Below are positions 48,373 to 54,496 of a DNA stretch of 64,000 nucleotides, piece after piece; positions within the stretch are counted from its first letter, which is position 1; every line of letters begins with the position of its first letter. The stretch lies in NCBI RefSeq assembly GCF_009909615.1, contig NZ_WWNE01000005.1, forward strand, positions 310,334-374,333, read 5' to 3'. The stretch comes from Acidiluteibacter ferrifornacis. Its GTDB lineage: Bacteria; Bacteroidota; Bacteroidia; Flavobacteriales_E; Vicingaceae. Under the pieces are notes generated by a model. That model saw only the letters and a program-made list of their open reading frames with translations, had not been told where the DNA came from and searched no databases. The translations under genes were made by a program, and so were the position numbers.

Positions 48373-49529
48373 CAGTTTTGATCGAATTTAGTGAGAATTA
48401 GATTCCATTTTGTTTCTATTTCTTGTTCTGTAAGGTCTAATGATTCTGTCAATAAAACAGTTAATTCTTTTTTTGTGGAGGTGTTGCCATTGATTAAGAC
48501 GTTCAAGCCCTTTTCTCCTTTAAGTTCAAAAACAAGTTCACATAATGCAGCTCCAGCAGGATAAGCGACCTGATATCCTTTGTAAGGATTGTTATGATCA
48601 AAAATAGAGTGGAAATTGGTTGATGAGTCATTAAAAACATCATCACTTAATAGTTTCATTCTATTTTGATATTCAGTAATATCGACTTTTGTACCCAGAA
48701 AAGTGGCTAGACCCTCTTCAATGATATGACTTCTATTCTGATTTTCAGGTAATAGTTGATGGATAAATTCATGAGGATAAAACTCATCCTTGATACAAGA
48801 GATTACCATCTGTTCTTTAGATTTTCCTGTAGTGATACCAGTAAAATAGTAATCGAAATTTTCTAATTGACCCATCTGATCAATGTCATTAGCAATGTAG
48901 TAGTTAAAGTGATAGTTCGTGTTTTCTGGATTGTATTCTTTTAGAATCTCAGCACAAAATTCATTGGCTTTTTGAGCCCGTTTTTCTGAAAAGTCATAAT
49001 CAAAAGGGTAATGAAACGTAATGTGCTTTGTTTTAAAGGTATTCCACCCAGAAGTTACATTTTGTAAGGAGTTTTCCAATACCCATTTATTGTTTTCTTT
49101 TACTGCAAAAAGTTGGTGAATGGCCCAAACTTTAGAGCCAATATATGCCGGTTCAGTGGTGTTAGAGGAATAGAGAACTTTAATTCTATATTTTTCATCA
49201 ACCGGCTCAATGGATAGTATAAAAGGTGGAAAATATCGTTGAATTTCTTCACCTGTAAAAGATTGAAATAGTGTGGCTCTTGAAAGATCAAAATCTTTGA
49301 ATTTTTTCTTCTCCTCAGAATTCCAGTATGGGTTATTTTGAATCAATTCCGGTGATGAATTTAAGTAGTTGGAATATAGTTGTATTATTGATCTGATGTC
49401 TGCATTATTAGTATCCACTCTATTACTTACTGAGATGGAGGGAGGCGTCTTGGTTTGCAATGCAGAGCATGAAAAAATAGCGATAGAAATTCCAAAATAG
49501 AGTAATAAAAGGTGTTTTATTTTCATCAT
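48372..49529 (-). CDS. Lipoprotein with HExxH...E gluzincin-like motif inside the metal-uptake operon
   Basis: The 385-residue protein begins with a signal sequence and lipobox (IFSC, Cys21), so it is anchored facing the periplasm. It has no domain I can name. In the middle lies HEFIHQLL (HExxH, residues 253-257) followed by IIEEGLATFLG (EEG, 271-273). This is the spacing and sequence of gluzincin metalloproteases of the peptidase-MA/M1-like type. The gene overlaps the permease before it by one base (TAATG) and the permease after it by one base (TGATG). It is therefore translated with the transporter. Role unknown: perhaps processing of the binding protein or a chaperone-like fold. Confidence 0.75.
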   Translation of the reverse strand: MMKIKHLLLLYFGISIAIFSCSALQTKTPPSISVSNRVDTNNADIRSIIQLYSNYLNSSPELIQNNPYWNSEEKKKFKDFDLSRATLFQSFTGEEIQRYFPPFILSIEPVDEKYRIKVLYSSNTTEPAYIGSKVWAIHQLFAVKENNKWVLENSLQNVTSGWNTFKTKHITFHYPFDYDFSEKRAQKANEFCAEILKEYNPENTNYHFNYYIANDIDQMGQLENFDYYFTGITTGKSKEQMVISCIKDEFYPHEFIHQLLPENQNRSHIIEEGLATFLGTKVDITEYQNRMKLLSDDVFNDSSTNFHSIFDHNNPYKGYQVAYPAGAALCELVFELKGEKGLNVLINGNTSTKKELTVLLTESLDLTEQEIETKWNLILTKFDQN

Positions 49530-50821
49530 TAATCAGTATAAGGAATATTACTTTGGTGTGGGTCTTTAGTTGGATAGTTGAGTTCTTTCTCCAATAATCT
49601 TTCTACCTCGGGAGTAATGATGTGCTCAATCGCTTCGGCATCATTATGAACATGATCTGGAGCTAATTTCAATTTTTTATTTAAGTACATTTCCCATAGT
49701 CGATGTAGTCGAACAATTCGTTTGGCTTCGATTAACCCTAATTTTGTCAGGTGCCATTTATTGTTAAGAATTCTAATTTGATTTTTTGATTTTAAATAAG
49801 CTAAACCCTTTGTTAACTCTTGTGGATAAAAGTCTCTAGATTCAAGTAAAGTTGAAAAGTCAAACCCTTGGTGATAATCTTCACTTTCTTCACTTAAATG
49901 GAAAAACAGTTTTAATATATTCTCATTTCTTATTTTCAATCGATTCGACTGTTGGCGCTTAAGTTGGGGAAGAATGCCATTTTTTGGTGCGAAAAAAATA
50001 GAAGAAAGGGCAATGAAAGATAAACAGACAACTATCCATGGGCCAGTAGGCATAGAGGGGTAAAGGTAACTAATATAGGTTCCTAGTAGTGCAGAAAAAG
50101 CTCCAAGAATCGTGGCTATCAGAATCATTTTCCACAATTGATGTGTCCAAAAGCGCGCAGCAGTGGCAGGCGTTATTAAAAGTGCAGCCATTAAAACTAC
50201 CCCTACTGCTTGAATCCCCACAGCAATGGCCAATACCGTTAAACTTGATAATACAAATTCCAAAAAATTGACAGGAAGTCCGATGGATCTTGCAAAGTCA
50301 GAATTGAAGGATATCAATTTAAATTCTTTGTAAAAAAGGAAAACCACAAATATTAAGGCAATTGCTACACTTCCAAAAATAGTTACATCATCAGAGGTGA
50401 GTGAAGCAGCTTTCCCAAACAAGAACTTATCTAATCCTGCTTGTGAGGCATTTCCTGAGTGCTGAATAGCAGTCAATAATAAAATTCCGAAGCCAAAGAA
50501 TACACTCAACACTATTCCAATTGAAGTGTCGGACTTTAATTTGGAATGGTTGGAAATGTAATTAACCATGAGTAATGATATCCAACCTGATATAGTAGCT
50601 CCGATTAATAAGTAAATGGGATTCTTGGTTCCTGAAATGATAAACGCTAAACATACCCCAGGGAGTATGGAGTGGGCAATAGCATCTCCAACCAATGCTT
50701 GTTTTCTAAGAAAAGCGAAACAACCAACAATAGCAGCAGCAGCGCTTAGTAGCATTGTTCCAAATGCTACAAATCTTACATTGGGGTCAGAGAAAGACAG
50801 AAAGTCAAGTAAATCGTTCAT
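49529..50821 (-). CDS. Metal ABC permease fused to a DtxR/MntR-like domain
   Basis: Residues 1 to about 278 form an ABC-3 family permease of eight or nine helices (LVGDAIAHSILPGVCLAFI, AVGVVLMAALLITPATAARF). After a basic linker (about 280-298) comes a cytoplasmic winged-helix segment (about 299-360, LTKLGLIEAKRIVRLHRLWE) and a metal-binding dimerisation-like segment (about 370-425). The latter reads HVHNDAEAIEHI and YPTKDPHQSNIP. The same pattern occurs in the MntR of this operon: RKHRLWEFF, EIAEQLEHI and YPKFDPHGDPIP. The permease may therefore sense cytosolic metal. It overlaps the following gene by one base. Confidence 0.9.
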   Translation of the reverse strand: MNDLLDFLSFSDPNVRFVAFGTMLLSAAAAIVGCFAFLRKQALVGDAIAHSILPGVCLAFIISGTKNPIYLLIGATISGWISLLMVNYISNHSKLKSDTSIGIVLSVFFGFGILLLTAIQHSGNASQAGLDKFLFGKAASLTSDDVTIFGSVAIALIFVVFLFYKEFKLISFNSDFARSIGLPVNFLEFVLSSLTVLAIAVGIQAVGVVLMAALLITPATAARFWTHQLWKMILIATILGAFSALLGTYISYLYPSMPTGPWIVVCLSFIALSSIFFAPKNGILPQLKRQQSNRLKIRNENILKLFFHLSEESEDYHQGFDFSTLLESRDFYPQELTKGLAYLKSKNQIRILNNKWHLTKLGLIEAKRIVRLHRLWEMYLNKKLKLAPDHVHNDAEAIEHIITPEVERLLEKELNYPTKDPHQSNIPYTD

Positions 50822-52542: not shown

Positions 52543-53202
52543 TTAAATAAATTTAATATATAGGTTTTTACTAATGTCGAAAGAGATAGTAATGTTTTCT
52601 TTTCCTGCAATTTGAACTATTGCAGATTGGTCAAACTCAAATCGATTAATCAGTTTTACACGTGTGCCCAAAACCAATTTTACAGCATCCAAATATTGAA
52701 GAAAAGAATTTGAATGTTCTTTTACTCCTACTATGTGAGCTTCTTCTCCAATAGGTAATGCAGATAATACTGTGTCATGGATTTTATTAATTCTTCCTTC
52801 TTTATCAGGTATAGGGTCTCCATGAGGGTCAAATTTGGGGTATTCTAAAAAACTATCCAATCGATCTACAAGTGCTGATGAGCGAATGTGCTCCAACTGT
52901 TCTGCTATTTCATGTACTTCGTCCCATTTGAATTTTAGTTTTTCTACTAAAAAAAACTCCCAAAGTCTATGTTTTCGAATTACATCGATAGCAATGGCCA
53001 TACCTCTATTGGTAAGTGATGCGGGTTGATACTTGGTATAATTCACCAACTTTTTTTCGCTCAGTTTTTTTAGCATATCTGTCACTGAAGAAGCTTTAGT
53101 GTCAAGTTTTTCTGCAACAGCATTTGTGCTTGCACCACCTTGTTGGATTTGATTCAAACTATAAATAGCTTTTAAATAGTTTTCTTCTGCTAAAGAAATC
53201 AT
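52543..53202 (-). CDS. mntR: DtxR/MntR-family metal-dependent regulator
   Basis: The 219-residue protein has the full three-domain DtxR layout. An N-terminal winged helix (residues 1-65, EENYLKAIYSLNQ) comes first. The metal-binding and dimerisation region follows (about 70-140, RKHRLWEFFLVEKL, EVHEIAEQLEHIRS, YPKFDPHGDPIP). A C-terminal FeoA/SH3-like domain closes it (about 145-219). With bound manganese or iron(II), such proteins repress uptake genes. It is the first gene of the transporter operon it probably controls and so may regulate itself. A 20-base inverted repeat lies upstream. Confidence 0.9.
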   Translation of the reverse strand: MISLAEENYLKAIYSLNQIQQGGASTNAVAEKLDTKASSVTDMLKKLSEKKLVNYTKYQPASLTNRGMAIAIDVIRKHRLWEFFLVEKLKFKWDEVHEIAEQLEHIRSSALVDRLDSFLEYPKFDPHGDPIPDKEGRINKIHDTVLSALPIGEEAHIVGVKEHSNSFLQYLDAVKLVLGTRVKLINRFEFDQSAIVQIAGKENITISFDISKNLYIKFI

Positions 53203-53218: not shown

Positions 53219-53274
53219 CAAAAGTACTTTAAGTTTTTGTTCCCAACCTTAAAATTTTTAGAGTTGCCTAAAAA
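53219..53274 (-). promoter_or_regulatory. Control region of the metal-uptake operon: promoter element and inverted repeat
   Basis: On the minus strand TACTTTTG (plus 53219-53226) fits the -7 consensus TAnnTTTG; transcription would start about 10 bases before the mntR ATG. Further upstream, TTTTTAG (53255-53261) and CTAAAAA (53268-53274) form a perfect 7-base inverted repeat with a 6-base spacer. It resembles DtxR-type boxes and is a candidate MntR site, although it lies about 40-60 bases upstream of the presumed start. Confidence 0.5.
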
Positions 53275-53350: not shown

Positions 53351-53641
53351 TTACAAATGTAAAACAACTTCAATTTACATTTGTCAATACCTTTGATGTT
53401 ACAAAAGTAAATTACAATAATAGGGTGTTTACGATTGTAAATAGTAGTTTGCAAGACATTCAGACTATTAGTTTACAATTCTAAATAAGCTATTCATTTA
53501 ACTAATTTATTATAAATAATATCCTTTAAATCAACATTTAGTATAGTTTATTTAAATCTTTAGTTGATGTGATTTAGCTTTATTCTATTAACCTTTTGTA
53601 TAGTTTTACTTATGTAACTTTAAATTTAATTACATTTGTAA
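53351..53641. promoter_or_regulatory. Seven-site operator array (TTACAnnTGTAA) and promoter of the HTH gene
   Basis: Palindromes TTACA-nn-TGTAA occur at 53351-53362 (perfect), 53375-53386, 53399-53410, 53429-53440, 53473-53484 and 53606-53617 (each with one mismatch in the arms), and 53630-53641 (perfect). The first three begin exactly 24 bases apart; so do the last two. The last one contains TACATTTG (53631-53638), matching the -7 consensus, with the ATG at 53644, so the promoter would be shut by a bound protein and the mRNA would be leaderless. The 53203-53643 gap otherwise holds only the mntR control region. Confidence 0.65.
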
Positions 53642-53643
53642 AT

Positions 53644-54087
53644 ATGGATTTGATAGATAGGTTTAAATATGTAATGAAGGTTTACAATGAATCACCTTCT
53701 AGTTTTGCAGACAAAATTGGTGTGCAACGTTCAAGTATTTCACACATATTGAGTGGACGAAATAAACCCAGTTTGGATTTTATTCAAAAGATAATGGAGT
53801 ATTATCCAAAAATAGATGCTCAATGGTTAATTAATGGAAAGCAATCCAATCCAAAAGAAGTGGAAGTTGGTTTGGATAGGGAAATTGAAAAAGCGCCATC
53901 CACTATTATTTCATCGGAAAATTCTAAGATTAAGGAGGAGGAACCAGGACCATCATTCTCGAATAATGAAGAAAAAAGTGAAGAAAAAGAGGATCTTAAT
54001 TCTAAATCAAACGATTTATTCAAAAAAAAAATCGATAAGATAATAGTGTTTTATACTGATAATACTTTTGAAGTATTTAATCGATAG
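53644..54087 (+). CDS. XRE-family HTH repressor-like protein, 147 aa
   Basis: The N-terminal helix-turn-helix (residues 1-65) reads DLIDRFKYVMKVYNESPSSF, then ADKIGVQRSSISHILSGRN and KPSLDFIQKIMEYYP. This is the phage-repressor-like form widespread in Bacteroidota. An acidic, Glu/Ser/Lys-rich linker (about 72-125) and a short conserved C-terminus (KKIDKIIVFYTDNTFEVF) follow. I start at the ATG at 53644; the longer frame needs a TTG and would run through the operator region. The seven palindromes upstream, one over the promoter, point to autoregulation. Its 3' end overlaps that of the next, opposite gene by 11 bases. Confidence 0.85.
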   Translation: MDLIDRFKYVMKVYNESPSSFADKIGVQRSSISHILSGRNKPSLDFIQKIMEYYPKIDAQWLINGKQSNPKEVEVGLDREIEKAPSTIISSENSKIKEEEPGPSFSNNEEKSEEKEDLNSKSNDLFKKKIDKIIVFYTDNTFEVFNR

Positions 54088-54496
54088 AATTCAGCCAATT
54101 AATTGCTTTGGACTCGTCGTTAAAAAGTCGTGTAGGGATGTTAGGCTTGTTAAAGCGAATGAAAAAGTTCGCGACTAATCTTATTCCAATACTATTGACC
54201 AATAATGCGCTCCTCAATCCTAATTCTGGAGCTCGTTTATGTTTAGCTACATAGTCGCGTGCTTCAGGAGAGATATTATAGTTAATTACTCTTGCATCTG
54301 TTATTAAAAAACGTCTTCCTAGTTCGGCGTATGGTAGAAATGTATTCGTTAATTCTATCATTTCGTCAAGTTCCATATCAGCTCCTTCTTTGAATTTAAA
54401 ATAGAGCTTGTTGGTAGAAAATTGATAAAGAGTAACCGCTGGAAAATCTTTAATTAATTGAAGATTTTCAATTTCAATCGATTCGGTATGGTTCAA
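54077..54496 (-). CDS. STAS/SpoIIAA-like small protein, 139 aa
   Basis: The 139-residue soluble protein has the alternating beta-alpha pattern of STAS or SpoIIAA-like domains: NKLYFKFKEGADMELDEMIE, RFLITDARVINYNISPEARD, then ALLVNSIGIRLVANFFIRF and the C-terminal TRLFNDESKAINWLNSI. The last segment is typical of Bacteroidota proteins of this size annotated as STAS/SEC14-like or uncharacterised. The serine that is phosphorylated in true anti-sigma antagonists is not clearly present. Function unknown. It converges with the HTH gene, the 3' ends overlapping by 11 bases. Confidence 0.6.
   Translation of the reverse strand: MNHTESIEIENLQLIKDFPAVTLYQFSTNKLYFKFKEGADMELDEMIELTNTFLPYAELGRRFLITDARVINYNISPEARDYVAKHKRAPELGLRSALLVNSIGIRLVANFFIRFNKPNIPTRLFNDESKAINWLNSID

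Follow-up and report, generated by a model that had tools for sequence, protein, structure and literature searches.

The 434 Cro protein, the 434 repressor, and related XRE proteins (2cro, 2or1, 3cro) share an HTH fold and act at clustered operators over their own promoter. In the early operator of phage Mu, IHF lies between O1 and O2, so that several repressor sites are split by an IHF-type site. In the gal operon of E. coli, where the LacI-family protein GalR acts with HU in a repressosome, repression is optimal at spacings of 103, 113, 123, and 133 bp and is lost at half turns, with HU at the loop apex (PMC4693257). At the H. pylori arsR promoter, Fur acts at multiple operators with DNA compaction or looping (PMC5007355). 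No regulatory DNA loop in the Bacteroidetes was found described in the open-access literature searched.

We analysed a 64,000-nucleotide stretch of the Acidiluteibacter ferrifornacis genome (the window), in which a gene for an XRE-family regulator is preceded by an array of palindromes. The simplest reading of this locus by analogy is that it has the same geometry as the gal repressosome and that an XRE autorepressor may have evolved it independently. An earlier reading of the DNA letters (the sequence-only reading) had described seven near-identical 12-base palindromes in about 290 bases, three pairs of them with starts 24 bases apart and the last overlapping a −7 element 2 bases before the ATG of the HTH gene. 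All of these features were recovered. The features of the locus are as follows, numbered from the first letter of the window.

53255 to 53274, no strand: DtxR/MntR-type palindrome TTTTTAGAGTTGCCTAAAAA, outside the array, before the divergent mntR gene (52543 to 53202)
53351 to 53362, no strand: operator-like palindrome TTACAAATGTAA, distal cluster; counterparts at −290 to −297 in relatives
53375 to 53386, no strand: operator-like palindrome TTACATTTGTCA, distal cluster; probably corresponds to site A, which lies 24 bp ahead of B
53399 to 53410, no strand: operator-like palindrome TTACAAAAGTAA, distal cluster; by helical phase, the probable counterpart of site B
53429 to 53440, no strand: operator-like palindrome TTACGATTGTAA, distal cluster; probable site C, with an equivalent in Flavobacteriaceae
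53473 to 53484, no strand: operator-like palindrome TTACAATTCTAA, extra site, common to the congener (−171)
53528 to 53562, plus strand: middle block AAATCAACATTTAGTATAGTTTATTTAAATCTTTA, with an IHF-like core; class consensus TCARnnnnTTA...TTAnnTAAAgT
53606 to 53617, no strand: operator-like palindrome TTACTTATGTAA, proximal cluster, site E; also an imperfect alternative −7 element
53630 to 53641, no strand: operator-like palindrome TTACATTTGTAA, proximal cluster, site F; contains the −7 promoter element
53631 to 53638, plus strand: putative −7 promoter element TACATTTG (TAnnTTTG), inside site F
53644 to 54087, plus strand: XRE-family regulator gene, 147 amino acids; Cro/CI-type HTH at residues 3 to 64, disordered linker, C-terminal β-hairpin at 132 to 146
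53663 to 53674, no strand: weak eighth operator-like match TTAAATATGTAA, within the coding sequence; may correspond to the start-codon or + site of relatives

A pattern search of the window placed seven TTACAnnTGTAA sites within 53351–53641, of which those at 53351 and 53630 match perfectly and those at 53375, 53399, 53429, 53473, and 53606 carry one mismatch each. The 24-bp spacing of starts is found in the pairs 53351/53375, 53375/53399, and 53606/53630, and the site at 53630 contains TACATTTG, with the ATG at 53644. Genome-wide (3.517 Mb, 22 contigs) there is no enrichment of the motif: TTACAnnTGTAA with no more than one mismatch occurs 245 times, less often than the reversed control pattern (305). 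At this rate 0.020 sites would be expected in 291 bp, where seven are present (Poisson P ∼3e-16). The objection that the motif might be common at random therefore does not hold for the cluster. The array lies far above chance, and elsewhere the motif occurs at chance frequency. A search of the open-access literature for the TTACAnnTGTAA motif returned nothing relevant.

The protein encoded beside the array is a member of the XRE/Cro-CI HTH regulators, matching HTH_3 (PF01381) over residues 20–62 with 34.5 bits against a cut-off of 23. Its predicted structure comprises a five-helix Cro/CI fold, a disordered linker, and a confidently predicted C-terminal β-hairpin, and the closest solved folds include 434 Cro and the 434 repressor. 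Conservation is found in the recognition helix region VQRSSISHILSGRNKPSL and in the tail KIVVFYsDnTFeeF. Of 37 family genomes, 30 have an orthologue, as do 77 of 295 class genomes (E up to 1e-10); named records with an orthologue run to hundreds, among them Flavobacterium, Kordia, Winogradskyella, and Tenacibaculum. The XRE gene is widespread in the class Bacteroidia as a single-copy conserved chromosomal locus. A gene for a DUF7793 protein lies 3′ of it in convergent orientation (54077–54496, minus strand), with one to three tandem copies in relatives.

The closeness of the fold to 434 Cro and the 434 repressor, HTH-level PHROG matches, and weak sub-cut-off matches to HigA and RstR models would suit a prophage immunity remnant, or an antitoxin or restriction-modification controller that has kept its operators. 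We regard such an origin as scarcely credible, given that the single-copy locus is conserved across families, that its neighbours are mntR, pyrD, and housekeeping genes without an adjacent toxin or restriction gene, and that no viral relative was confirmed. The search for relatives covered 2.9 million viral contigs. The likeness to a phage-type repressor proposed from the sequence thus holds for the DNA-binding fold only, and the accompanying remark that no phage genes are nearby is borne out by the housekeeping neighbours. The locus differs from the 434-type systems in its chromosomal setting, a single conserved locus with no phage context, and in the C terminus of the protein, a disordered linker and short β-hairpin in place of a CI-type oligomerisation or peptidase domain. 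Among specific identities, that of a phage immunity repressor was rejected for want of a phage or prophage region at the locus, that of an RstR family repressor (NF041951) at 24.3 bits against a cut-off of 80, and that of a HigA-type antitoxin at 15.7 against 47.7 bits, the next gene being that of the convergent DUF7793 protein and not a toxin. A replication origin or skew switch was likewise rejected, the GC-skew profile of the window showing gene-strand changes only.

The array follows the XRE gene and not its neighbour. Three or more sites precede the orthologue at 76 of the 79 named loci and at 26 of the 27 family loci; the corresponding control windows have as many in 2 of 2030 and 0 of 123 cases. 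The sites of the family orthologues form two groups, typically at −290/−273/−216 and −84/−49/−24, and those of Flavobacteriaceae lie at −297/−273/−240 and −76/−40. Perfect site pairs 5–35 bp apart occur in 27 of 46 family genomes, every match listed being the XRE locus (reversed pattern, 0), and the 13 Flavobacteriaceae genomes searched gave 7 paired-site matches, each the sole match of its genome. The gene upstream is mntR in the source genome and its congener, TypA/BipA, an unrelated gene, or a co-directional ORF in other family members, and an M14 peptidase in Flavobacteriaceae. The distal and proximal clusters are kept by orthologues across Bacteroidia, whatever the upstream gene. The persistence of the array beside the gene throughout the class, with its final site on the putative promoter, supports the earlier suggestion that it is a repressor array that would serve cooperative autoregulation of the adjacent HTH gene. 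Outside this pattern, few or no matching sites were found in the class members L095, L098, L099, and L100, and a de novo palindrome search in members without the array gave nothing recurrent. In other families (f10, f22; L080, L082–L084, L096, L097) the palindrome is kept before the orthologue in shorter arrays without the distal cluster geometry.

An array of this kind names no binder by itself, and its motif is identical to TACAnnTGTA, which we take to be the operator core of BlaI/CopY regulators (cop/bla boxes). It is improbable, though, that another regulator of the cell, such as a BlaI/CopY-type repressor, binds the array and controls the XRE gene. The recognition helix VQRSSISHILSGRNKPSL and the site are both nearly invariant, and L099, with a diverged helix (QQSTLSH), lacks the array; paired sites, among the matches listed, lie nowhere except before the XRE gene; and no Penicillinase_R protein exceeds the family cut-off (best genome match, 21.4 against 22.6 bits). 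BlaI/CopY was rejected as the binder, the genome having no Penicillinase_R winged-helix regulator above cut-off. The conservation of the inverted repeats together with the recognition helix is consistent with binding of the operators by a dimer of the XRE protein.

The element TACATTTG within site F fits the −7 consensus of Flavobacterium, TAnnTTTG, perfectly. TAnnTTTG is the σA −7 box of F. psychrophilum, located at −12 to −5 (PMC9723704). Applied here, this placement would put the transcription start at ∼53643 and give a nearly leaderless mRNA. A forward-oriented TAnnTTTG is present in site F at 81 of 85 loci and in 28 of 196 distal sites, and site F itself lies at −49 in most family members and at −40 in Flavobacteriaceae. 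In the source genome two proximal sites compete as the −7 element. The site at 53630 implies the nearly leaderless mRNA, but its box is perfect and its distance to the middle block, 100 bp, is that seen in relatives; the imperfect box at 53606 would leave a normal leader of ∼25 nt. We prefer 53630, which helical phase identifies as the equivalent of the promoter site F of relatives, although the promoter could instead use 53606. A scan for E. coli-type promoters, a type ill-suited to this phylum, scored below shuffle level. At 56 of 80 Flavobacteriaceae loci an operator-like TTTACAATGGTAAAC or TTTACAATGATAAAC spans the XRE start codon, which accounts for the MVN/MIN N terminus of the Flavobacteriaceae proteins. 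Among loci L138–L214 the start-codon sequence, where present, takes the form TTTACAATG(G/A)TAAAC.

Between the distal and proximal clusters lies a conserved block of ∼36 bp, common to the family and Flavobacteriaceae, with the consensus aTCA(G/A)TnaTTTA.......TTA..TAAA.T and an IHF-like core, TCARnnnnTTR. The first half of the block matches the core of WATCARNNNNTTR, which we take to be the E. coli IHF consensus. Exact WATCARNNNNTTR was present at only 13 of the 29 loci, though shuffled regions gave 0.65. The source genome has a weak, degenerate copy of the block, which a gapped profile located (shuffle p ∼0.01); its distance to F is exactly 100 bp. A bending protein of the HU/IHF type is the candidate binder of the block, and the source genome has two HU/IHF-family genes and one partial match.

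The distances between the clusters fall into discrete classes. From distal site B to F they cluster at 212–215, 222–226, and 231–236 bp. When a profile was scanned along the entire interval to place the block independently, the class means were 112.3, 123.0, and 133.3 bp from B to the block and 89.4, 100.2, and 111.3 bp from the block to F, each with a standard deviation of ∼1 (90 loci, with manual placement by means of the gapped profile for 4, the source genome among them). The classes are ∼10.5–11 bp apart in both halves, and the halves vary independently, a total of 213 arising as 112 + 101 or 123 + 90, 223 as 112 + 111 or 134 + 89, and 233 as 133 + 100. In the source genome the probable B site at 53399 lies 131 bp before the middle block and 231 bp before F. 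Values of R were 0.88 and 0.93 for the real profile and 0.12–0.27 for reversed or column-shuffled profiles. Relatedness inflates R, and the phasing argument therefore rests on the number of independent changes; the F-to-ATG distance also gives an R of 0.69, which comes from two inherited length groups, although this distance is not independent of the start-codon operator. The tree of the linked M14 peptidase requires a minimum of 5 + 3 switches between classes, and the XRE tree 14 + 5. If changes range from 4 to 25 bp in size, about one-third would be in phase, and eight in a row would have a probability of ∼1e-4, which short indels, the commonest kind, would lower further. Spacing classes with at least eight changes on the tree are the expected signature of an obligate helical face. 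The distance between the operator groups is held to whole helical turns, as in helically phased repression loops.

A 300-bp leader whose layout is conserved over a class might also reflect a transcribed RNA or a small gene upstream of the regulator, made up of the distal and middle elements. This is very unlikely, as neither a triplet code nor RNA stems would account for changes in length by 10–11 bp, only the DNA-palindrome sites and the ∼36-bp block are conserved, and no Rfam match was obtained up to E 0.1.

That cluster spacing has changed almost only by whole helical turns points to folding of the XRE promoter into a loop by the XRE protein. We put at about 0.7 the probability that the XRE protein is an autorepressor that closes a loop of ∼210–235 bp over its own promoter, with an HU/IHF-type bend in mid-loop. 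The protein would bind TTACAnnTGTAA as a dimer and would repress, rather than activate, its own gene. The proximal sites would cover the promoter, the −7 element being within F, and Flavobacteriaceae would add the site over the start codon. Dimers at the distal sites, ∼210–235 bp upstream and on a fixed helix face relative to F, would touch those at the proximal cluster, probably via the conserved C-terminal β-hairpin. The loop so closed would be bent at the block roughly midway, probably by an HU/IHF-type protein, and would shut the promoter inside the proximal group. Self-repression by a looped array would enable the XRE protein to sense and limit its own amount.

A gene for an M14-type zinc carboxypeptidase is divergently linked to the XRE gene throughout Flavobacteriaceae (∼−312). 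Its start lies ∼15 bp from the first distal site, so the M14 promoter must lie in the distal cluster, as would be expected if the distal sites served a second, divergent promoter (that of M14 in Flavobacteriaceae and others elsewhere) and cooperative autorepression proceeded without a loop. However, the distal cluster is also present where its neighbour is mntR, TypA, or a co-directional ORF terminating immediately upstream of it, and independent promoters explain neither the helical-turn spacing between the clusters nor the middle block. We therefore consider this arrangement unlikely and favor the loop.

Like the GalR-HU repressosome, the looped array would place operators at two positions and hold the promoter inside the region under control. 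The middle block would be the counterpart of the HU site at the gal loop apex, and the spacing classes correspond to the strict helical phasing at gal. The two regulators are unrelated in sequence, GalR being of the LacI family. The gal loop is 113 bp with two operators, whereas the loop proposed here is ∼210–235 bp with clusters of 2–4. GalR controls the gal genes, in contrast to the regulator's own gene here, and the middle block here has an IHF-like sequence core. The phasing at gal comes from constructs and that described here from natural variation. Evolution has in effect repeated the gal phasing experiment many times, and the geometry of a repression loop can thus be read from genomes alone. 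The phage Mu early operator, compared by description only, is similar in that repressor sites are grouped around an IHF-type site. Its repressor, by contrast, is not an XRE protein like the one here and acts in a phage switch between two promoters. The H. pylori arsR system also has a small regulator, multiple operators, and compaction or looping over a promoter, but its regulator belongs to the metal-dependent Fur family and acts by oligomeric condensation, with no bending protein or evolutionary phasing described in the abstract (PMC5007355).

The circuit appears to be directed mainly at the XRE gene itself and, in Flavobacteriaceae, perhaps also at the divergent M14 gene. The best site form outside the array, TTACAWWTGTAA, occurs 18 times in five genomes, as does the control pattern. 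With TTACAnnTGTAA at chance frequency elsewhere, no wider regulon is visible, and the genome showed no multi-site target besides this one. The larger regulon envisaged in the sequence-only reading is also at odds with the confinement of paired sites, among the matches listed in 46 genomes, to the XRE locus. The sole recurrent site among the single non-array sites is a perfect one, conserved between two genera (L117, L126, L130, and L125 position 2501), which lies 25–29 bp ahead of the MarR gene at the head of an RND efflux operon. Because TTACATTTGTAA contains the −7 consensus, single sites can arise as plain promoters, and we do not claim the MarR-RND site as a target.

It is possible, and we put it forward tentatively, that this is a class-wide self-only circuit, whose sole multi-site target is its own promoter, folded into an HU/IHF-bent loop with the helical register kept across diverse Bacteroidia. 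The cellular role of the regulator is perhaps in local chromosome architecture or in response to a hidden signal. An unstudied, widespread regulator thus gains a defined putative operator, a defined promoter, and a testable mechanism, and the question is raised of why a protein with no visible wider regulon is under such elaborate self-control.

Inclusion of the neighbouring metal operon in the regulon, suggested earlier from the sequence, is unsupported, because the neighbour varies, being mntR in two genomes only, and the mntR promoter has its own DtxR-type palindrome. The palindrome at 53255–53274 is perfect, TTTTTAGnnnnnnCTAAAAA, and the congener has TTTAGGTCTACCTAAA at the same place; it is probably the operator of a metal regulator. 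Within the window, the ABC-3 metal permease gene at 49529–50821 (minus strand) encodes a C-terminal Fe_dep_repr_C domain (residues 359–427), a DtxR-type metal-binding and dimerisation domain, and is thus a transporter-sensor fusion.
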